This document shows, one piece after another, positions 2,011 to 18,474 of a stretch of DNA of 28,750 bases. Position numbers and translations under genes: made by a program. The notes below the pieces were generated by a model. That model was not told the origin of the DNA, did no database searches, and saw only the letters and a list, made by a program, of their open reading frames with translations. Position 1 is the stretch's first letter, and the number at the start of each line of letters is the position of its first letter. The stretch is from a virus: IMG/VR virus record IMGVR_UViG_3300021373_000986, positions 1-28,750 of that record; one strand, written 5' to 3'.

Positions 2011-3455
2011 TAGTATTTGACCTTTTGAATGTTATATGGATACTCTGCATCCTTGTAATATTTTTTGCGTTCAGTCAGATGGCGCTTTGAGAATTTACAG
2101 CGGCTAGTCACATCCCAAATCTGAACAAAATCTTTATCTTCTGCTATACGAACCCCACGCCCGATAGACTGAATTACACGAACAAATGACTTGCCAGGTT
2201 CAAGAAGTACCAGATTAAAAATGCGAGGAATGTTGATACCAACGGCAGCAACGCCGTAAGTAGCGATTGTGATTGTATTCGTTCCCTCATTGATTTCTTT
2301 GTACGCATCTTTGCGGTCATTTGTTTTCATTTCTCCCTGAACAAACTCTGCACCGGGCAGTAGTTCCTGTAATAGTTGTCCGTTCTTAATTCTTCCTGTC
2401 AATACAAGTGTATTACCTGTCTTGGACACTTCTTTAATCATTTCTGCGAGGTATTCCATTCGCTTCTTGTCTTCTAACAAGAACTTTAACTCGCTTTGGT
2501 AACTTGTATATTCTGCTGTTTCCTGTGTCTGAACAATGTTCACTTCACAGTTAGCAAGAACTCCTTGATCCTGTAATTCTTTTGCTGCTAGACGATTGAT
2601 GACTTCACCTAATGAACTACGCAGTGACGCAAACTCATAGTCTGCTTTTGGAATAGTTCCTGTTAAGCCCCAACGAATAGGAACATTTGCAAATACACTT
2701 GTGAGCAAATCTTTTAGAACATCTGCTTTAGCTTGGTGTACTTCGTCAACCATAACGCATATAACATCTTCAATAAAATCCATGATGTTATCTTCGCCTT
2801 TTTTTGTTTTCTTTAACAAACTATTGAGCGATTGCCATGTACAGATAGTATGTGTCTTACCTATATCTTTACGGTCTCCGAAGTACACCCCCACATCTAA
2901 CCCACAATTAATATAATCTTCTTCTGTCTGTCTAACTAGATCCTTATTTGGTACAATAACGATAGAACGACCATACTTCTCTACAATCTTAGACAGTGTA
3001 GCAGTCATAATAGTTTTACCTGCGCCTGTCGCAATCTCCTGTAGAGCCTGTGGTGTCTCTATGAACTTGTTAACAACATCTACTTGATAGTCACGTAAAC
3101 GAATTGGTTGACCTGCAATAGGATGTCCTTCAGGCCAGCAAGTATCACCCCAAAACTCCTCGTCAATAACATCAAACGATAGTTCTGTGTGTTCACGCTT
3201 ATCATCAATATCAATTTCATATCCTGCTTCAATAACAATCGGCAGAACATCATCAAGTAGATTTAAGTAAGTACGACCACCAACATCACAGAAGCGAACT
3301 GTCCCATCCCAACGTCCCAACTTATATGCTGGCATATGATACGCATGAGGTAAGAAAAACTTTAGCTTGTCTGAACACTTGCGGCGTGTTGCAGGATCAA
3401 GACCTTCAAGTTTGACATTCACTTCATCTTTGATTATGATAGTGCATTTCTTCAT
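2010..3455 (-). CDS. uvsW: UvsW-type superfamily 2 DNA helicase
   Basis: 481 aa, close to the 500 aa or so of T4 UvsW. SF2 helicase motifs are in order: RDYQ (121-124), Walker A ATGAGKT (142-148), DEVH Walker B (237-240), LTGT motif III (264-267), a C-terminal helicase domain and motif VI QSIGRGVR (429-436). The N-terminal ~100 residues contain the small substrate-binding domain with KLGRWDGTVRF, a hallmark of the UvsW family. In T4 the enzyme unwinds R-loops and branched DNA, drives fork regression, and shifts replication from origin- to recombination-dependent initiation. The start overlaps the DUF59 gene stop by 4 bases (ATGA), so both should be translated from the transcript that begins at the promoter near 3795. 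Confidence 0.97.
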   Translation of the reverse strand: MKKCTIIIKDEVNVKLEGLDPATRRKCSDKLKFFLPHAYHMPAYKLGRWDGTVRFCDVGGRTYLNLLDDVLPIVIEAGYEIDIDDKREHTELSFDVIDEEFWGDTCWPEGHPIAGQPIRLRDYQVDVVNKFIETPQALQEIATGAGKTIMTATLSKIVEKYGRSIVIVPNKDLVRQTEEDYINCGLDVGVYFGDRKDIGKTHTICTWQSLNSLLKKTKKGEDNIMDFIEDVICVMVDEVHQAKADVLKDLLTSVFANVPIRWGLTGTIPKADYEFASLRSSLGEVINRLAAKELQDQGVLANCEVNIVQTQETAEYTSYQSELKFLLEDKKRMEYLAEMIKEVSKTGNTLVLTGRIKNGQLLQELLPGAEFVQGEMKTNDRKDAYKEINEGTNTITIATYGVAAVGINIPRIFNLVLLEPGKSFVRVIQSIGRGVRIAEDKDFVQIWDVTSRCKFSKRHLTERKKYYKDAEYPYNIQKVKY

Positions 3456-3760
3456 TCAAATATTCCAAGAATTAACTTAGCGTCTTCTGACATCATTTCG
3501 GGTCCCCATTGTGGCTCCCATACAACATCAACATTGCACATAGATACACCCGCACTCATAGCTGCGCCCTTAACGTCTTCAATAATAAAGTCAGCCGCTG
3601 GACAAAATGCACTCGTAAGAGACATTGTAATATCACAATATCCCTCACCGACTTTCACTTCATAAATCAATCCCAAGTCGTACACGTTTACTGAAATCTC
3701 AGGATCATATACTTCTTTAAGATTCTCAATAATTTTTTCTTTTGTTTCTTCGATGCTCAT
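3452..3760 (-). CDS. DUF59/MIP18 (SufT/PaaD-like) iron-sulfur assembly protein
   Basis: 102 aa, the usual size of a single DUF59 domain. Diagnostic segments are VYDPEISVNVYDLGLIYEV (17-35), SLTSAFCPAADFI with conserved C53 (48-59), and a C-terminal WEPQWGPEMMSEDAK. Members of this family (SufT, PaaD, MIP18) help mature Fe-S cluster proteins in the cytoplasm. As a phage gene it is a candidate host-derived auxiliary gene; its client is unknown. The stop overlaps the uvsW start, tying the two together. It has its own promoter immediately upstream and is insulated from the AAA-ATPase gene by a terminator. Start choice fits family length, although no Shine-Dalgarno sequence lies at normal spacing (an AAGGTG is 13 bases away). 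Confidence 0.92.
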   Translation of the reverse strand: MSIEETKEKIIENLKEVYDPEISVNVYDLGLIYEVKVGEGYCDITMSLTSAFCPAADFIIEDVKGAAMSAGVSMCNVDVVWEPQWGPEMMSEDAKLILGIFE

Positions 3761-4843: not shown

Positions 4844-4896
4844 TCCTTTCTCTCTTGATTACTCTATTAATATAACACGATTCGTGATTCTGTCAA
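4844..4896 (-). promoter_or_regulatory. Early promoter copy 1 (AAA-ATPase)
   Basis: Minus strand: TTGACA (4896-4891), 16-base spacer, TATATT (4874-4869), then TAATAGAGTAATCAAGAGAGAAAGGA leading to the ATG (given here as positions 4868-4844, key parts GTAATCA and AAAGGA). This is one of five copies of the same promoter-leader cassette. In this copy the spacer contains the perfect palindrome CACGAATCGTG. The -35 box begins 7 bases after the stop of the upstream 100-aa gene. Confidence 0.88.
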
Positions 4897-5206: not shown

Positions 5207-5264
5207 AACTGAGTTCCTCTCTCTGATTACTATATTAATATAGCATGATTCGAGGATTTGTCAA
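5207..5264 (-). promoter_or_regulatory. Early promoter copy 2 (100-aa gene)
   Basis: Minus strand: TTGACA (5264-5259), 16-base spacer ending CGAATCATGC, TATATT (5242-5237), and leader GTAATCAGAGAGAGGA. The -35 box starts three bases after the oxygenase stop codon at 5268. It matches the other four copies in the -35, the second half of the spacer, the -10 and the leader. Confidence 0.9.
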
Positions 5265-5267
5265 GTT

Positions 5268-5813
5268 TTATGCAAGTGTTTGTATTGGAATATTGAAAGT
5301 TTTTCTGTGCGCAGACACAGTAGAGAAGAAACGATGCCATGTTTGTTTTTCATTATCTTGACCATGGCTGCTTTTAAATGCAATGATACGATTATGACGA
5401 TAAGGAATTATTTTAGAGTTAGTTCCTCTGTCATCACTTGCTGCTTCAAAGTAGCCAGTATCTTCTTCACTGTCCATGTAATATAGAATTTGATAAATCT
5501 TATCAGGACCGTCAATGTGCCAATCTTTTTCAACCTTACCATCATTTGGTAGATTACCACAAAGATTAGTTTGGTATCTATATTCTGTTGTATTTCTTTT
5601 GAATGCAGAATCAAGCACCTTTACCATATCATCCAAACGACTTTCATTATATGAAATGAACTCGTTCCACAATTTAGTTCTAGTTTCTTGATTCTGGCTT
5701 TCTACAAATTGCTCACTTAACTTGTTAGCAATATCTATATCTAATGCATTATTGATAATAATATGAGGCCAAGGTTCTGAAAAATATTCATACTGTTTTT
5801 CAAAAAAATACAT
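5268..5813 (-). CDS. 2-oxoglutarate/Fe(II)-dependent oxygenase-like protein
   Basis: 181 aa, a single jelly-roll oxygenase domain. The candidate iron ligands are H99-x-D101 in DWHIDGPDK and a distal histidine (H160 in TWHRF), with R170 about ten residues later as the expected 2-oxoglutarate anchor (HRKTFNIPI). The segment YQILYYMDSEEDTGYFEA is typical of the strand following HxD. Such enzymes hydroxylate proteins, nucleobases or small molecules; marine T4-like phages carry several, mostly with unknown substrates. The gene starts three bases after the methyltransferase stop, using a GAGGA at the end of that gene as ribosome binding site, so the two are co-expressed. H150 is an alternative distal ligand. 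Confidence 0.82.
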   Translation of the reverse strand: MYFFEKQYEYFSEPWPHIIINNALDIDIANKLSEQFVESQNQETRTKLWNEFISYNESRLDDMVKVLDSAFKRNTTEYRYQTNLCGNLPNDGKVEKDWHIDGPDKIYQILYYMDSEEDTGYFEAASDDRGTNSKIIPYRHNRIIAFKSSHGQDNEKQTWHRFFSTVSAHRKTFNIPIQTLA

Positions 5814-5815
5814 TT

Positions 5816-6463
5816 TTATTCCTCAGGTAACTCCGGTAAGTTCATGTTCAATCGTTTTACTAGCGCAAAGAAGTTATGCTTTTCTTTATAGTCGCCTGCG
5901 CTAAGTTCAAAAGAATCGCTTTGAACAATTTCAAATCCAGATGATTTAAATAATCTTTCGTATGTATCTTTGTCTAGTGTACCTAATGGTATACCTTCAT
6001 TACTTGTATCAGGGACTTCAATATATGCCCAACCGTTAATTCGTAATGCTCTATTAATTTCTAGCATAGTATAATAAGGCTGGAATGAAAATTGCAAAGA
6101 TTGTCTCATCCAAACAACATGAAAGAATTTTGACATTATCTTTGAAAAATTATAATTCATTAGGTGTACATTTAATCCCTTTTCTTTTTTACATAAATCC
6201 CATTCTTGCTTATGCAACGTTAGTCCCTGTGAATTTTCATATCCCAATTCAATTAGTTTCTCAATTGCATAACCATCGCCACATCCTATATCTATAATGA
6301 ATTTATTTTTATCACCGCCAGTGGCACCATCAATAAATCCAGGAAGTTGTGCATCGATTACTTTATGATCGATATCAGTTGAAGGCTGATAAACAACCTC
6401 GTTTTCCATTGCATACTTAAATTGCTTTTGTCTAATCCATGCTTCGTCAAATACGTGTTCCAT
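5816..6463 (-). CDS. Class I SAM-dependent methyltransferase
   Basis: 215 aa. The SAM-binding motif I is FIIDIGCGDG (55-64), followed by an acidic strand-2 region and a motif near residues 150-156 (WAYIEVPD) typical of the small-molecule/Methyltransf_11 class. No target-recognition domain or NPPY/DPPY motif of DNA amino-methylases is visible, so the substrate is not obviously DNA. The start codon shares its A with the nrdB stop (TAATG), and the end is three bases from the oxygenase start. A coupled methyltransferase and oxygenase after ribonucleotide reductase is suggestive of nucleotide or cofactor chemistry, but the substrate is unknown. Confidence 0.85.
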   Translation of the reverse strand: MEHVFDEAWIRQKQFKYAMENEVVYQPSTDIDHKVIDAQLPGFIDGATGGDKNKFIIDIGCGDGYAIEKLIELGYENSQGLTLHKQEWDLCKKEKGLNVHLMNYNFSKIMSKFFHVVWMRQSLQFSFQPYYTMLEINRALRINGWAYIEVPDTSNEGIPLGTLDKDTYERLFKSSGFEIVQSDSFELSAGDYKEKHNFFALVKRLNMNLPELPEE

Positions 6464-10584: not shown

Positions 10585-11052
10585 TTAATATCTAGTGTTT
10601 ATATCTGCGTCTTCCATACCTGCTACTCTCAACTTGATAATATTAGACAACTGAAAGTGTTTGATTTCAAACCCTTTGGTGATCCCTTGAAATTGATTTC
10701 GCATTAACGCTACTTGGTTTATTAGTTCTGAAATTGCTACAACTTCATCTTCGCCATCAGCATACTTTTCTGCGTCCCTGCTAGATAATGCTTTATTGTA
10801 GCTTTCTAAATATTTTCTCAAATATTCACTACGCTTTTTACGTAAACTTATATTTAGATGTTCTAGGATAGCTTCTAGCTCTTGTAGTTGTGAAAATCGT
10901 AGTTCTACATATGCTGGAAGTTCTGTAGAGTTACGCTCTACATTTCCCTTAATCTTAACCTCAGTCCTCGCTTCTGCCAGTTCTTTTTCAAAATGGTCAA
11001 GACATGCAGGAATATTATTCCAGTCCGCTACGACTTTACGATACCAACTCAT
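10585..11052 (-). CDS. uvsY: UvsY-like recombination mediator
   Basis: 155 aa, near the 137 aa of T4 UvsY. It is predicted largely helical with a heptad-like middle (LQELEAILEHLNISLRKKRS) and a conserved C-terminal region GFEIKHFQLSNIIKLRVAG, matching the RGFAIKHIQD-type segment of T4 UvsY. UvsY loads UvsX recombinase onto gp32-coated single-stranded DNA. The neighbouring uvsX and gp32 genes support the call. The start overlaps the 79-aa gene stop by four bases (ATGA). Confidence 0.88.
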   Translation of the reverse strand: MSWYRKVVADWNNIPACLDHFEKELAEARTEVKIKGNVERNSTELPAYVELRFSQLQELEAILEHLNISLRKKRSEYLRKYLESYNKALSSRDAEKYADGEDEVVAISELINQVALMRNQFQGITKGFEIKHFQLSNIIKLRVAGMEDADINTRY

Positions 11053-12919: not shown

Positions 12920-13951
12920 TTAGTCACTCTTACGAGCGCGGATCATTGCCAGGATATCAGAAGCATCCTTACCAGCACCTGCTGGAGCAGAAGAAGCTGC
13001 TTCTGCTTCTACTTCTTCATTAGACTTGAAAGGAATATCATCTTCCTCTACTGTTGCTGCTGGCGCTGGAGCAGGCTTTGGAGCCGGAGCGGGAGCAGCT
13101 TTTGGAGTAGGTTTAGCCGATGTTGATGAACCTGATGATGTATTCTGAACAGCACCTTCAGGAACTTCAAGACCATATGGCTTATAGAAGTTACCCCAAC
13201 GTTGTGGATCATATAGTTCACCATCTACTGATGCTTCGAACATTTCCATGATTACGTTTAGTTCCTCTTGTGAAGGACGCTTTGGCATGAACTCATTCAA
13301 GTCAAACAGACCATGAGTTTCGATTGCCTGACGCTCTGCTTCATTTAGAGAACGCTCTTTACGAGCCCAGTTTGAAGTAGAGTAATCTGCGTACTGACCC
13401 TTTTGTGTTTTTGTCAAACGGAAGTCTGTACCCGCATCATAATCAGTTGGCATGTTTTCCATATCTGGATCCATCAACGCTGCTTTTAGCAGTTTGAAGA
13501 TTTGTGGACCAATCACGAAACGACGGATTGGATTTTCTGGAGTTTCTTCGTTCATTGGATCTGTTACTACAAACCCTTGGAAAATGTATGAACGCTTTTT
13601 CCAATACTTACGACCTAGTTCTTCCATTGCTGGATCTTTGAACCAAGGACGAATCTCTGCATGTACAGGACATGTGTCGCCCCACATTTCAACGCATGGT
13701 ACTTGTACTGTAACTGGCTTCTGTTCGCCACCTACAACACCTGCGAAAGGCATCTTAATCACCTGACGCTCACGCCAGAAGAATGTGTTACCGTTATCTG
13801 CATCTGGAAGGAATCGAATAACCGCAGTGCTATCGTTGTCCATATTCCAGAACGGATAGATTGCATCTGTGCCACGATTTTGATTGGAATTTGATTCTGC
13901 TTTGTTTTCTTGTGCCAGCAGTTTCGCACGAATTTCTGCTAAAGTTGCCAT
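12920..13951 (-). CDS. 32: gp32-like single-stranded DNA-binding protein
   Basis: 343 aa (T4 gp32 is 301). The core OB-fold region spans about residues 30-250. Part of the zinc site is suggested by C86, C94 and H97 (PCVEMWGDTCPVH). A low-complexity Ala/Pro/Ser linker (about 273-303) precedes an acidic segment (EEDDIPF) and the C-terminal domain that in T4 recruits UvsX, UvsY, helicase and polymerase. The terminal 20 residues are less acidic than in T4 and end in IRARKSD. It coats single-stranded DNA during replication. It is a monocistronic unit with its own promoter, an unusual repeat-bearing leader (13952-14037) and a terminator. AGGAG lies eight bases before the ATG. Confidence 0.93.
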   Translation of the reverse strand: MATLAEIRAKLLAQENKAESNSNQNRGTDAIYPFWNMDNDSTAVIRFLPDADNGNTFFWRERQVIKMPFAGVVGGEQKPVTVQVPCVEMWGDTCPVHAEIRPWFKDPAMEELGRKYWKKRSYIFQGFVVTDPMNEETPENPIRRFVIGPQIFKLLKAALMDPDMENMPTDYDAGTDFRLTKTQKGQYADYSTSNWARKERSLNEAERQAIETHGLFDLNEFMPKRPSQEELNVIMEMFEASVDGELYDPQRWGNFYKPYGLEVPEGAVQNTSSGSSTSAKPTPKAAPAPAPKPAPAPAATVEEDDIPFKSNEEVEAEAASSAPAGAGKDASDILAMIRARKSD

Positions 13952-14037: not shown

Positions 14038-14066
14038 ATAATAACAAAGTTATTTATCAAAGTCAA
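14038..14066 (-). promoter_or_regulatory. gp32 promoter, overlapping a late-type motif
   Basis: Minus strand TTGACT (14066-14061), a 17-base spacer, TATTAT (14043-14038). The GATAAATAA at 14058-14050 inside the spacer matches the T4-like late promoter motif seen elsewhere, so the gene could be transcribed both early/middle and late. The left part lies in a 10-bp inverted repeat. Confidence 0.7.
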
Positions 14067-14090: not shown

Positions 14091-14117
14091 AAAATTGGAG
14101 ACATTTCTGTCCCCAAT
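14085..14117 (-). terminator. Intrinsic terminator after the secreted hydrolase gene
   Basis: Minus strand stem ATTGGGGACA/TGTCTCCAAT (10 bp, one G-U pair) with a GAAA tetraloop (14117-14094), then seven T. It follows the hydrolase stop by about 20 bases and closes the five-gene early operon. Confidence 0.88.
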
Positions 14118-14137
14118 TTAATTCATAATATTTGGTA

Positions 14138-15154
14138 TTACTTGTCAATGATTACGGTATCCATAGAGTCATCGAGCCAATTGTTGATTGCATCACGTAC
14201 TGACTTGTCACCAAATTTGGTACGATATGTATCTTTCATGAATGTAAGAACATGTCCACCCGGTTGAAAACCATTGACACCACGCTTGTTTGCATCAATC
14301 ATTACACCAGCGCCGTAGAATTGGATATCAGCAATAGTTGCAGATTTGAACTTGTTCTGATCCACTGGACGTGCATAAGGGTCACCTACGTTCCAAATTA
14401 AGAATACGTTGTCGATCCCCATTTGTTCAAACTTATCACGTGACGGGAAACAGTTGTACCATTTCAACGGATCATCGCCACAATGTTCTGGTAGATTTTT
14501 GTACAACCACCGACGGCTTTCTTTATTGTTTGGTGTGAATACATTTGCGTACCAATCTTTTGTTGCAGCATCAAACCAAAAACTATCTACTACGACTTTT
14601 ACCATTGGGATACGTTGTTCAAGTTTAGCAATTAAGTCCGAATTAAAACCTAGTCCGATTGCGCCTGCCGAATAGCCGATGAATACAACCTCATCCGCAG
14701 CAAATAGTTCTTTGCTCATTTCGGCAGCGACATTTTCGACAATCGCACGTCCTCGGAACTGTACTACTTCTCCGTTGATTTCATGTTCGTGATTTCCTTG
14801 CCAAATATCACTTGAACAGTAAGGCAAATACAGTATATTATAGCCTCTATCTTTCATATCATGCAAGATATCATTTTGTTGAAAATTTGGTCTACTTACG
14901 TTATCCGCAGTAGTAAATCTGGGTTGACTTGCTCTACGATTTTGATATTGATCGGGAGAAGTTACGACTCCGCCACCTGCAAGAACAACAGCCCAATTGT
15001 TACTACCATTATACTGTACATTGTATGTAGCCTGTGTACCATCATTACACAAAGCATCCGGGGAAGTTGTAGTTCGAATTTCAGTAGCATTAGCTTGTAC
15101 TACTGATAGAGTTGCAACAAATGCTGCGGTTAGGATAGACTTGTACATTCTCAT
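14138..15154 (-). CDS. Secreted pectin-acetylesterase/Notum-like alpha/beta hydrolase
   Basis: 338 aa from the ATG at 15154 (a longer frame to 15220 overlaps the upstream gene; AGAGGAG directly precedes 15154 and is 8 bases from a second ATG at 15148). Residues 3-22 form a signal peptide, with ANA as likely cleavage site. Family segments: LAGGG oxyanion region (59-62), YLPYCSSDIWQGN (109-121), FRGRAIVE (133-140), nucleophile elbow GYSAG with S162, then D258 (GDPYAR) and H301 (PGGHVL), completing a Ser-Asp-His triad. Four cysteines could pair in the periplasm. Family members remove acetyl or acyl groups from polysaccharides or lipidated proteins. Last gene of the operon from the promoter at 16230, so early expression is likely. 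A phage role in altering the host surface is inference. Confidence 0.85.
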   Translation of the reverse strand: MRMYKSILTAAFVATLSVVQANATEIRTTTSPDALCNDGTQATYNVQYNGSNNWAVVLAGGGVVTSPDQYQNRRASQPRFTTADNVSRPNFQQNDILHDMKDRGYNILYLPYCSSDIWQGNHEHEINGEVVQFRGRAIVENVAAEMSKELFAADEVVFIGYSAGAIGLGFNSDLIAKLEQRIPMVKVVVDSFWFDAATKDWYANVFTPNNKESRRWLYKNLPEHCGDDPLKWYNCFPSRDKFEQMGIDNVFLIWNVGDPYARPVDQNKFKSATIADIQFYGAGVMIDANKRGVNGFQPGGHVLTFMKDTYRTKFGDKSVRDAINNWLDDSMDTVIIDK

Positions 15155-15164
15155 ATCTCCTCTG

Positions 15165-15425
15165 TTAAAGTCTACGTTCAATTTCTTCAAGCTGGCGCTT
15201 GTGTTGCTCAAACCTGTCACGTATATTCACGTAATGTTCCCAAGTAGCATAGTCATACGTATCAGGTCCATTTTTGGCACATCGGTCACTGGCTTCCAAT
15301 TGAGCAAGTTTCTCACCGAATGCATACCAACCCACTATCTCCTTTGTGTCGTATTCATATACAACATAAACGGGACAATTATGTTTAAGTGCTTCTTCAA
15401 GGCTCAAAGTTTTTCCGAGGTTCAT
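15165..15425 (-). CDS. Unknown small protein (86 aa), early operon gene 4
   Basis: I do not recognise this protein. It is 86 aa, with a compact N-terminal part (CPVYVVYEYDTKEIVGWYAFG) and a helical, charged C-terminus (RDRFEQHKRQLEEIERRL) that may be a coiled coil. There is no signal peptide. Its ATG overlaps the stop of the 58-aa gene by four bases and has GGAG seven bases upstream; it ends ten bases before the hydrolase start. Confidence 0.78.
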   Translation of the reverse strand: MNLGKTLSLEEALKHNCPVYVVYEYDTKEIVGWYAFGEKLAQLEASDRCAKNGPDTYDYATWEHYVNIRDRFEQHKRQLEEIERRL

Positions 15426-15598
15426 ACTGGTGCTCCATCATATGCGTCTTCAAAATAACAATTAGCTACGAGACCTACACCCATTTGACCATATTCGGCA
15501 TCGATGATTTCATATACTTTATCAACGTCTACACCATCTTCAATAAGACCATATACACGTTCTTGTACTTCTACAACAAAATTACCCATTGCACTCAT
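15422..15598 (-). CDS. Unknown very small protein (58 aa), early operon gene 3
   Basis: 58 aa, reading MSAMGNFVVEVQERVYGLIE to CYFEDAYDGAPV. It is acidic (about 13 D/E and only two K/R) and probably a helix-rich fold; no domain recognised. Support comes from tight ATGA overlaps with both the 44-aa and the 86-aa genes, an AGAGG seven bases before the ATG, and a coding-like codon pattern. Too short for a confident family assignment. Confidence 0.72.
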   Translation of the reverse strand: MSAMGNFVVEVQERVYGLIEDGVDVDKVYEIIDAEYGQMGVGLVANCYFEDAYDGAPV

Positions 15599-15729
15599 TT
15601 TGATACCTCTTCTATTTCATAAGTTACTTTATCTACTTTTTGCCCTGCTAAAAATGCTAATGCATCTTCTTTTCGGGAACAGATAGCGACTGTATCGCCG
15701 CTACCTTTAACTTTTACAATGTATAACAT
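15595..15729 (-). CDS. Unknown very small protein (44 aa), early operon gene 2
   Basis: 44 aa, reading MLYIVKVKGSGDTVAICSRK followed by a helix (EDALAFLAG) and KVDKVTYEIEEVSK. The beta-turn-beta-helix-beta pattern suggests a small folded domain, not noise. The start shares its A with the stop of the 147-aa gene (TAATG) and the stop overlaps the 58-aa gene start (ATGA). No domain recognised. Confidence 0.7.
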   Translation of the reverse strand: MLYIVKVKGSGDTVAICSRKEDALAFLAGQKVDKVTYEIEEVSK

Positions 15730-16172
15730 TAAGCAGCCGCCTTTAATTCTTCACGATAGTTATAAGGACGATCCCAACGACCCACATTGATATCAATGTA
15801 GAAGTCATGATCAAAGTAGTCAATCATTGCGTCACTATTATTGTAGTAACCTGTAGACATAATAGCAGCAAGCAAGTCACCGTAGAAACGCTTAATGACA
15901 GGATCAGTAGCATGTTCTTCACAGTAATACTGATTTACTTGAATGTAAGAACCAACAGGACGAGACTGTTCACCACGCATACGTGCGTATTCATCGTTAT
16001 GCAACTGAGCATCGCCGATGAAGTCTAGCGGACCACCAAAGATGTTGACAACAAGAGTCGAATGATTGTTAACACCGACAGTCACTTCACGACCTGTAAA
16101 GCCATATGCTTTAGCAACTTTCTTAACGTTAACAGCAATTTCTTTTTTACGTTCTTGAGACATATAAGCCAT
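15729..16172 (-). CDS. Conserved phage/plasmid protein of unknown function (147 aa), early operon gene 1
   Basis: 147 aa. The N-terminus AYMSQERKKEIAVNVKKV, the central NNHSTLVVNIFGGPLDFI and the C-terminal DYFDHDFYIDINVGRWDRPY match, from memory, a widespread family of uncharacterised phage and plasmid proteins with the same start (YM.QE.K), HST motif and NIG.W..PY end. Function is not established. It is the first gene after early promoter copy 3, with AGAGGA seven bases before the ATG, so it should be among the most strongly made early products. No catalytic or membrane motif is visible. Confidence 0.85.
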   Translation of the reverse strand: MAYMSQERKKEIAVNVKKVAKAYGFTGREVTVGVNNHSTLVVNIFGGPLDFIGDAQLHNDEYARMRGEQSRPVGSYIQVNQYYCEEHATDPVIKRFYGDLLAAIMSTGYYNNSDAMIDYFDHDFYIDINVGRWDRPYNYREELKAAA

Positions 16173-16230
16173 TGAGTAGTCCTCTCTCTTGATTACATAA
16201 TTAATATAGCATGATTCGTGAGATTGTCAA
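16173..16230 (-). promoter_or_regulatory. Early promoter copy 3 (five-gene operon)
   Basis: Minus strand TTGACA (16230-16225), 16-base spacer containing CACGAATCATGC, TATATT (16208-16203), leader GTAATCAAGAGAGAGGA. The -35 box begins five bases after the stop of the 60-aa gene. Confidence 0.9.
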
Positions 16231-16235
16231 CCTTT

Positions 16236-16418
16236 TTAATCAAAAAAGTTTCCTTCAACCCAAACATATGTGTCAGAGCCTTGTTCAAACCACATACCAT
16301 CCTTGCTCTCTGGATTACCCCAAAGAAGTTCTTTGTTGGCTGTTTCCATAAGTTCAAGTCCGGTTTCTGCTTTAGCAGTGAAAATCGAACCGTATGCTTT
16401 AAACGTGAAGTAAGTCAT
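16236..16418 (-). CDS. Unknown small early protein (60 aa)
   Basis: 60 aa, reading MTYFTFKAYGSIFTAKAETG at the start and MWFEQGSDTYVWVEGNFFD at the end, rich in aromatic residues and probably a small beta/alpha fold. No domain recognised. The ATG is four bases after AGGAGAG in a copy of the early promoter cassette, and the gene is tightly bounded by promoter copies 3 and 4, which argues strongly that it is expressed. Confidence 0.82.
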   Translation of the reverse strand: MTYFTFKAYGSIFTAKAETGLELMETANKELLWGNPESKDGMWFEQGSDTYVWVEGNFFD

Positions 16419-16469
16419 TTGTCTCTCCTGATTACTTAATTAATATAGCATGATTCGCTGATTTGTCAA
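16419..16469 (-). promoter_or_regulatory. Early promoter copy 4 (60-aa gene)
   Basis: Minus strand TTGACA (16469-16464), 16-base spacer AATCAGCGAATCATGC, TATATT (16447-16442), then AATTAAGTAATCAGGAGAG to the ATG. It is nearly identical to copy 5 from the -35 to the leader. Confidence 0.9.
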
Positions 16470-16474
16470 GTTCT

Positions 16475-16924
16475 TTATGCTACTTTCTTTTCGTAAACTG
16501 CTTCACCATTTGAGAACACACCAAGACGGTTCATTTCACCAAAGTTTGCGTGAAACTTTTTAGAAATTTTCTTAACCCACGATTCTGCTAGTGGGTTTTC
16601 GTTGCCGTAGTAATCTTCTTTCGCAACAATCCAAACCGCAGCACAACCACAGTATTCACTGACGCCAAAGTAAGCAAGTTGATTTTCAGCAATTGCTAGG
16701 TCTTCACGACCAACCCATTCTTCACAGTCTTCCATAGATGGGAAAAGTTCTTTAACTTTCTCTACCATCCATTCTTTGAAATAGTTCCAATCATCTTCTG
16801 CTTGGAATTCACAGTAGTTGTCATAGTCAACACAATCGTTTTCATCATCCCAACCGTGACCATGTTCTGTAACATCATAGTAAGCAACGATTGCGTCACG
16901 TGGTGTAGAAACTGAACGACCCAT
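16475..16924 (-). CDS. Conserved phage protein of unknown function (149 aa)
   Basis: 149 aa. The N-terminus MGRSVSTPRDAIVAYYDVTE, a strongly acidic and aromatic middle (HGWDDENDCVDYDNYCEF), LFPSMEDCEEWVGRED and EYCGCAAVWIVAK form a pattern that, from memory, recurs in uncharacterised phage proteins (MGRSVSTP at the start, FPS, W.GRE, EYCG.). No function is established. It is the first gene of the early island, directly behind promoter copy 5 with AGAGGA seven bases before the ATG, and is followed five bases later by promoter copy 4. Several cysteines (about residues 32, 38, 69, 92, 94) could bind metal but do not form a known motif. Confidence 0.87.
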   Translation of the reverse strand: MGRSVSTPRDAIVAYYDVTEHGHGWDDENDCVDYDNYCEFQAEDDWNYFKEWMVEKVKELFPSMEDCEEWVGREDLAIAENQLAYFGVSEYCGCAAVWIVAKEDYYGNENPLAESWVKKISKKFHANFGEMNRLGVFSNGEAVYEKKVA

Positions 16925-16981
16925 AAGAACTTCCTCTCTCTGATTACTTAATTAATATAGCATGATTCGCTGATTTGTCAA
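16925..16981 (-). promoter_or_regulatory. Early promoter copy 5 (149-aa gene)
   Basis: Minus strand TTGACA (16981-16976), 16-base spacer AATCAGCGAATCATGC, TATATT (16959-16954), leader GTAATCAGAGAGAGGA. The -35 box lies directly beside the A/T tract of the preceding terminator, so the early island is insulated from the late block. Confidence 0.9.
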
Positions 16982-17031: not shown

Positions 17032-18474
17032 TTAGTCTAAGATATCAAATTTTGAGAATGCTTCTGCTAACATGTCATCGAATTTTTCTTCGACTGTCTT
17101 TGTTTCGTGTACATCTTCTGTTTGTGTCTTTGACATTTTAAGAAGCATACCAGCTAGTGCAACCTTTTCTTTATTAAGACCTTTAGCATTAGTTCTGATT
17201 TCTTCACCGAAGTCACGTAGGAAGTTTGATAGTTCTGCCGCTCTATCATGACCTTTGTTCTTACGTTTCTTGTCATCAATCGTATCTACATCCACACGGT
17301 CTGCTAAATCATCAAATTGTAGAGACATCATGTCGATTTTTTGTTGCTGTGCTTGTGCTGCATTTGTAGGTTTAGCATACTGTCGTTTAATGCTATCGAA
17401 ATTAAAACCGTCACCCTTTGTTGGGAATGAAATTTTGTTTTTCTTTTCGCCTGTCTTTTTGTCAACTGCTGTGATGATTTCTTTGACACGTGCTACTTGG
17501 TTCGCACGATTGTTTTCCATTTCTTCTTCATTTACACGATGAACAAGTGGTAGAATATCTTTTAGTGATTCTTCAAACGTTGTTTTAGTAAATTTCGATA
17601 CATAGTCATTTACTGTATCTTCTGAGATTTCTACATCATCTGAGTTTTCATTCAATGCCATTGACTCAACGAATGCAGTATAACCTTTAGCACCTTGAAT
17701 ACGCTTGATTGACTCTTTGATTGAATCCATCTTTTGTTTTACATTAGCAACGATTGAACGATTGTTTTCGTTTACAAGACCTTGCTTGTTTACAACGTTC
17801 ATGAATTCTTTTAGTTTTGATAGATTTGACGAATGCTCAACAATCGCTTCGCCAACCATATCACTTGGTACGCCACCGTTAGCAACGTGTCTAGCCATTG
17901 CTCTTGCGCCGTTCAAATGTTTAAACGGATACTTGAAACGTTCACCATCAGCGTTTTCAATAAAGATAGCTGAAATATTACGTGAACGTGAGCCACGGCT
18001 TTCTTCATTTACTGGGTTACGATGCTTTACGATAATTCTTGCGTTTTCTAGTGTTTGGCGACTTGTGCGTGATGATCCTTCTAGTGGTGAGATACCTTCA
18101 TTGAATACGTCACTCATAGCCTGCTCCTTGTTTTGTTCTATTTTGAAAGCATAGTTCTTTGGTTCAATATGCTTACCGAATGATTTTGTGTTAAAGTCTA
18201 GTAGATTACTACGTGCTGTGTCTTTCAGCATATCTACAAGTTTCTTAACTTGAGGGTTGTCTAAATCAGTACGCTCACCCAAGTCAACATTTAAGTCATG
18301 TGATTCTTCATCGATGAATACCATAAGGTTTGGCATTTCTACGAAAAAGTAACGTGCTTTCTGAGGGTCAGCCACGCTTTTTCCTTGTGATGAATCGAAC
18401 ATCTTTGTTTGTAGACCAAGACCCTGAATAATCTTCATTGTCTTTTCTGCTATTCTGTCAATATTTACAGCCAT
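17032..18474 (-). CDS. Unknown protein in late block (480 aa), possible virion or assembly protein
   Basis: 480 aa, rich in charged and polar residues, mostly helical by appearance, with no signal peptide or membrane segment. I recognise no domain. An N-terminal folded part (ARYFFVEMPNLMVFIDEESH at about 40-59) is followed by long helical stretches, and the tail (KFDDMLAEAFSKFDIL) is acidic/amphipathic. It follows gp17 in the same direction, has its own late-type promoter motif overlapping the gp17 stop, ACGGAG before the ATG, and is closed by a strong terminator. Late expression and size suggest a structural, core or assembly role. Similar long proteins adjacent to terminase occur in marine T4-like phages, from memory. 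Confidence 0.8.
   Translation of the reverse strand: MAVNIDRIAEKTMKIIQGLGLQTKMFDSSQGKSVADPQKARYFFVEMPNLMVFIDEESHDLNVDLGERTDLDNPQVKKLVDMLKDTARSNLLDFNTKSFGKHIEPKNYAFKIEQNKEQAMSDVFNEGISPLEGSSRTSRQTLENARIIVKHRNPVNEESRGSRSRNISAIFIENADGERFKYPFKHLNGARAMARHVANGGVPSDMVGEAIVEHSSNLSKLKEFMNVVNKQGLVNENNRSIVANVKQKMDSIKESIKRIQGAKGYTAFVESMALNENSDDVEISEDTVNDYVSKFTKTTFEESLKDILPLVHRVNEEEMENNRANQVARVKEIITAVDKKTGEKKNKISFPTKGDGFNFDSIKRQYAKPTNAAQAQQQKIDMMSLQFDDLADRVDVDTIDDKKRKNKGHDRAAELSNFLRDFGEEIRTNAKGLNKEKVALAGMLLKMSKTQTEDVHETKTVEEKFDDMLAEAFSKFDILD

Follow-up and report, generated by a model that had tools for sequence, protein, structure and literature searches.

Genomic setting of the esterase gene

The window, a 28,750-nucleotide stretch of metagenomic viral DNA, carries a gene for a protein of the pectin acetylesterase (PAE)/Notum family, hereafter the esterase, which lies between replication and packaging genes (Table 1). 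Five small genes accompany it in the island between the gene for a virion structural protein and that for the ssDNA-binding protein (SSB). The tail tube and sheath genes are about 9 kb away, and there is no tail module around the esterase gene, which agrees with the initial annotation in speaking against a tail-based role.

Judged by TerL, the closest named phages are Pseudomonas phage PA5oct/MIJ3 (56% identity), Agrobacterium phage Atu_ph07 (52%) and Sinorhizobium phage Phosso (49%), and the SSB is 60% identical to its PA5oct counterpart. The genes for sheath, tube, terminase, structural protein, SSB and UvsX stand in the same order in PA5oct and in the window, and the order terminase, structural protein, SSB, RecA-like protein is also found in Phosso, CBB and Vibrio phage 2.275. 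On the basis of these identities and this gene order, the window is assigned to a PA5oct/Atu_ph07/RaK2-like jumbo myovirus, of which it is a fragment. The earlier description of the phage as T4-like holds in a broad sense but not in the narrow one, its TerL being nearest to those of the phages just named. The host is probably Gram-negative. PA5oct gp278, which lies next to the SSB gene of that phage, was considered as the counterpart replaced by the esterase and was rejected, since it is a homologue of the structural gene at 17032-18474.

Elsewhere in the window, a PF01883 iron-sulfur cluster assembly protein (3452-3760) lies beside a UvsW-like helicase, and a methyltransferase adjoins a weak 2OG-Fe(II)-oxygenase-like protein behind nrdB (5268-6463). 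A PTPS-like gene (PF01242; 11294-11743) sits between the UvsX and RNR genes; in a 342-kb relative it is only 39% identical, whereas the flanking UvsX and the gene at 10585-11052 are more than 80% identical.

Table 1. Features of the esterase locus, with positions in the window
Feature	Position	Strand	Basis or remark
Two further promoter copies	5224-5264 and 4856-4896		repeat search
ssDNA-binding protein (SSB), conserved downstream neighbour	12920..13951	-	phrog_1192, 1e-70
SSB promoter-like site TTGACT-17-TATTAT, downstream of terminator	14038..14066	-	kept in all same-lineage relatives
Intrinsic terminator AAATTGGGGACAGAAATGTCTCCAATTT-TTTT after esterase	14092..14119	-	hairpin sequence
PAE/Notum-family esterase, predicted exported	14138..15154	-	338 aa from ATG; PF03283, Foldseek, S162/D258/H301
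Putative signal peptide, ~24 residues, predicted cleavage after ANA	15083..15154	-	sequence and hydropathy
86-aa gene, no assigned function, directly upstream of esterase; its stop codon is the upstream cassette edge	15165..15425	-	
58-aa gene, no assigned function	15422..15598	-	100% identity to relatives lacking the esterase
147-aa gene, phrog_10415 (unknown function)	15729..16172	-	
Promoter copy 1, nearest strong promoter upstream of esterase operon	16190..16230	-	repeat search
60-aa gene, no assigned function	16236..16418	-	
Promoter copy 2	16429..16469	-	repeat search
149-aa gene, replaced in L078 by other genes	16475..16924	-	breakpoints at promoter repeats
Promoter copy 3	16941..16981	-	repeat search
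Virion structural protein, conserved upstream neighbour	17032..18474	-	phrog_13484; 38% to PA5oct gp278

Promoters of the esterase operon

A 41-bp promoter sequence, TTGACA-N6-CGAATCATGCTATATTAAT-N3-GTAATCA, occurs five times in the window with at most two mismatches, against none expected from shuffled sequences. It is near-consensus for sigma-70 and has an extended -10 element. Three of the five copies lie just upstream of the esterase, where copies 1 to 3 precede the genes at 15729-16172, 16236-16418 and 16475-16924, respectively, and where the repeat extends to 56 bp when its flanks are counted. The early promoter proposed in the initial annotation is thus borne out as a sequence, and from its sigma-70 type we can fairly infer early transcription by the host polymerase.

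The same motif was found in 38 IMG/VR stretches, several of them on jumbo-size contigs, two of which, 342 and 246 kb long, encode an SSB at 75% identity. The jumbo contigs that share the motif with the window have no PAE gene, and these two lack the whole island.

Family, fold and active site of the esterase

The esterase matches Pfam PF03283 (PAE) over residues 21-252 at E=1e-23 (84.5 bits, where the curated cut-off is 26.6 bits). Human NOTUM was matched at E=3.6e-13 in a phmmer search of the PDB, and fly Notum at 1.3e-55 by a 14-sequence profile (alignment A7). No other family with a solved structure was matched well by both sequence and fold. Models of PHROGs, NCBIfam and PADLOC gave no match for the protein. 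An AlphaFold (AF2) model built from the 14-sequence alignment has a pLDDT of 78.7 and a pTM of 0.84; its best 50 Foldseek matches in the PDB are all Notum (E 4e-16 to 3e-14, TM ~0.6), and a viral structure library returned generic alpha/beta hydrolases only, at E 1e-4 or worse. Structure prediction and comparison with Notum therefore find the alpha/beta-hydrolase fold, in line with the initial annotation, which had placed the protein in the PAE/Notum family and named S162, D258 and H301 as its likely catalytic residues.

Those residue numbers are correct, and the residues follow the canonical order and align with the Notum triad: S162, in GYSAG, with the catalytic serine; D258, in GDPY and invariant in 14 relatives, with FDEAQ of Notum; and H301, in GGHVL, with GHGVL of fly Notum. 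In the model, S162 follows a strand at the start of a helix, as in a nucleophile elbow, D258 likewise comes after a strand, and H301 is placed between the final sheet strand and the helix that comes next, preceded by a loop (295-300) with a pLDDT below 50. Human NOTUM has the triad S232/D340/H389, whose histidine is in the beta8-alphaF loop (PMC7544826), and the modelled position of H301 agrees with that placement.

The esterase shares with Notum, a palmitoleoyl-protein carboxylesterase, the common fold, the CNDG and YCSSDxW motifs, the GxSAG nucleophile and the aligned Asp and His. Notum is secreted, and the esterase is predicted to be. It differs from Notum in being shorter and phage-borne, with about 18-20% identity over the structure. 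Its YCSSD..W region is Notum-like and differs from the PYCTGD of some bacterial PAEs (L028). The GGWYC of Notum, in which W128/Y129 line the acyl pocket (PMC7544826), is replaced by GGV, and judged by these residues the esterase appears to lack the hydrophobic acyl pocket in its strict Notum form.

In base composition the gene (GC3 0.32) resembles the rest of the phage, and dN/dS between the window and the second copy of the gene, on contig L001, is 0.08 over 174 codons, so that by sequence comparison the esterase is under purifying selection. A second ATG at 15148 (residue 3) stands at a better distance from GAGGAG than the first, and the true product may for that reason be one of 336 aa.

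The N-terminus, MRMYKSILTAAFVATLSVVQANA followed by TE across the predicted cleavage site, opens with a basic residue, followed by a run of hydrophobic residues and an A-N-A site, and by eye and hydropathy it looks like a signal of the Sec type, in keeping with the signal peptide of the initial annotation. N-terminal hydrophobic segments are likewise present in the relatives L031, L011 and L012. Cysteines 36, 113, 225 and 235 are conserved family-wide, as would be expected for folding in an oxidising compartment. The putative signal peptide and the four conserved cysteines point to export of the esterase; both export and esterase activity have a good likelihood.

Presence and absence of the esterase gene among sister phages

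The window shares about 94% identity with contigs L036 (= L078), L054 (= L079) and L065 on the SSB-UvsX-RNR side and as far as the gene at 16236-16418. In all three the alignment ends at 14102 and restarts at 15165, with about 19 bases in between, so that the esterase is precisely missing. A more diverged strain, L083 (92% identity on one side, 78% on the other), is in the same empty state. In these four gene-less contigs the stop codon of the 86-aa gene is followed immediately by a terminator with a different stem. Contig L001, by contrast with them, holds a partial second copy of the esterase at the same place as in the window, where, at 93% identity, it adjoins the same SSB gene. Because the gene-less contigs break exactly at the esterase edges, the gene is best described as a one-gene unit of gain or loss, an optional, moron-like accessory cassette bounded by the upstream stop codon and the terminator.

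When the window is compared with L001, dS is 0.65 for the esterase, higher than for UvsX (0.26) and SSB (0.18), which suggests exchange of diverged esterase alleles. The gene at 16475-16924 is also swapped, and since two promoter copies coincide with its breakpoints (16478, 16983), the repeated promoter may act as a recombination joint. In L078 (8231-9907) the replacement consists of a 92-aa gene and one for a 425-aa protein, for which no family match was found.

Relatives in phages and bacteria

The PAE family seems almost absent from phages. No PAE was detected by tblastn in 50,697 phage genomes, PA5oct-type relatives included, or in plasmids. Scans of IMG/VR with the esterase protein and four alignments found only L001 and L009, although these scans relied on short conserved peptides that diverged members can escape; a scan of IMG/VR by a DNA pattern in which the serine codons were fixed as TCN returned nothing. 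Our search of the literature on PAE or Notum in phages found nothing relevant. The PAE of L009 (9992-10789; 265 aa), unrelated to the case in the window, has no plain signal peptide and lies in a siphophage tail/lysis module, where its neighbours are an endolysin-like gene and tail genes, one of which has weak BNR-repeat matches; it shows a second use of the family, probably tied to the virion or to lysis.

The closest cellular relatives found are L031 (35% identity over 314 aa) and L011/L012 (31%), probably secreted proteins of 320-345 aa from small alphaproteobacterial genomes of 1.4-1.5 Mb. They share with the esterase the GDPY and GH motifs, with 31-35% full-length identity, and are chromosomal, unlike the phage gene. 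In the tree, the phage esterase and these three form a clade with 100/100 support, apart from Notum and from the longer PAEs, myxobacterial and other, and the longer bacterial PAEs L013-L025 group separately from it. Plant and bacterial pectin acetylesterases share with the esterase the PF03283 match above the curated cut-off, the Ser-Asp-His triad and secretion, the last being a prediction for the phage protein.

PAE genes are rare among the sampled genomes of alpha- and gammaproteobacteria. They occur in 4 of 199 genomes of an alphaproteobacterial order (one below the cut-off, two being the sources of the query itself) and, by the clade profile, in 3 of 385 genomes of the class. We also considered a recent transfer from the host but set it aside, given this rarity and a nearest cellular protein only 35% identical. 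In the neighbourhoods of L011/L012 no phage genes and no hint of function were seen.

Discussion

We tentatively favour, at somewhat less than even chances, the view that the esterase is an early-made, exported serine carboxylesterase of PAE/Notum type that remodels the envelope of the infected cell by O-deacylation. The gene would be transcribed early from host-type sigma-70 promoters, and its product would be exported by the host Sec system to the periplasm or the cell surface, where a Ser162-His301-Asp258 triad would hydrolyse acyl esters; the enzyme would stay outside the virion. PAE relatives act on acetylated pectin in plants or, in the case of Notum, on lipidated proteins. For the phage enzyme, the most likely substrate would be O-acetyl or short O-acyl groups carried by an envelope glycan, such as O-antigen, capsule or exopolysaccharide. 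The phage would probably benefit from an altered surface of the infected cell, to which sister or rival phages bind less well and whose envelope debris does not trap the progeny. We infer both substrate and benefit from the nature of the enzyme and its setting, and the benefit would be conditional at most, since sister phages lack the gene. The more specific proposition that a lytic jumbo phage strips envelope acyl groups with a Notum-type deacylase exported early in infection, for superinfection exclusion or release, with a family new to phages carried as an exchangeable single-gene cassette, is possible and is put forward with more reserve.

The putative signal peptide and PAE membership would also fit an enzyme that is released on lysis or exported further and removes acetyl groups from extracellular polysaccharide, whether of a biofilm or mucus matrix or of algal or plant origin, aiding the spread of progeny or feeding the host, as an auxiliary, diffusible partner of depolymerases. 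Plant PAE enzymes do act on acetylated pectin (PMC9864977). A Sec signal alone, however, keeps a protein in the Gram-negative periplasm until lysis, and a product released by lysis needs no early promoters; we regard this alternative as unlikely.

A deacylase of longer chains, like Notum itself, might instead remove fatty acyl chains from lipids of the host, from lipid A or from lipoproteins of the envelope and cause envelope stress, block an envelope-sensing defence or prepare lysis. Notum is the nearest solved structure by both sequence and fold, and the YCSSD..W region sides with Notum and not with L028. The absence of the WY of the Notum pocket and the lack of a lysis gene adjoining the esterase weigh against such an activity, which we consider rather unlikely. 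To our knowledge, bacteria offer no Wnt-like substrate.

Counter-defence genes often sit in accessory operons of the kind seen here, early and composed of small unknown genes with gene-by-gene turnover. The esterase could thus be a counter-defence or host-toxic envelope protein directed at a component of a surface or periplasmic anti-phage system. PADLOC models did not match it, however, and we know of no defence target with a periplasmic ester, and we judge this role improbable.

Tail-borne phage deacetylases, such as gp63.1 of G7C and receptor-binding proteins with SGNH domains, remove O-acetyl groups from host glycans at entry (PMC13123978). That SGNH-type deacetylases are known on tail fibres (PMC13123978), and that L009, the only other phage PAE found, belongs to a tail/lysis module and has no plain signal peptide, would be in keeping with a virion-associated esterase used at entry. 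The parallel is chemical only: those enzymes have the SGNH fold, sit on the virion tail and serve entry, whereas the esterase has a PAE fold, a putative signal peptide and an early-type operon driven by sigma-70 promoters, has no tail-attachment domain, and is neither encoded with nor fused to tail proteins, the nearest tail gene being some 9 kb distant. A place in the virion is very improbable. That a bacterial gene was joined to phage DNA in assembly is scarcely credible: the gene is absent from sister contigs, but the independent contig L001 joins it to the same SSB gene, its GC3 matches the phage and selection on it is purifying.

If the envelope-remodelling reading is right, an exported early PAE/Notum enzyme would represent a use different from that of the known phage glycan deacetylases, which are found on virion tails and act at entry: it would edit the envelope of a cell already infected. 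The evidence comes from one metagenomic window and one partial second copy (L001), and natural strain pairs that differ by the esterase and a few neighbours make its role testable in principle. The compact clade of 320-345 aa also provides a small model for PAE/Notum enzymes. As a separate observation on the family, L016, a contig titled Klebsiella pneumoniae MAG, comes from a genome with three PAE genes; its protein groups with the myxobacterial ones, and the Klebsiella pneumoniae label looks doubtful.
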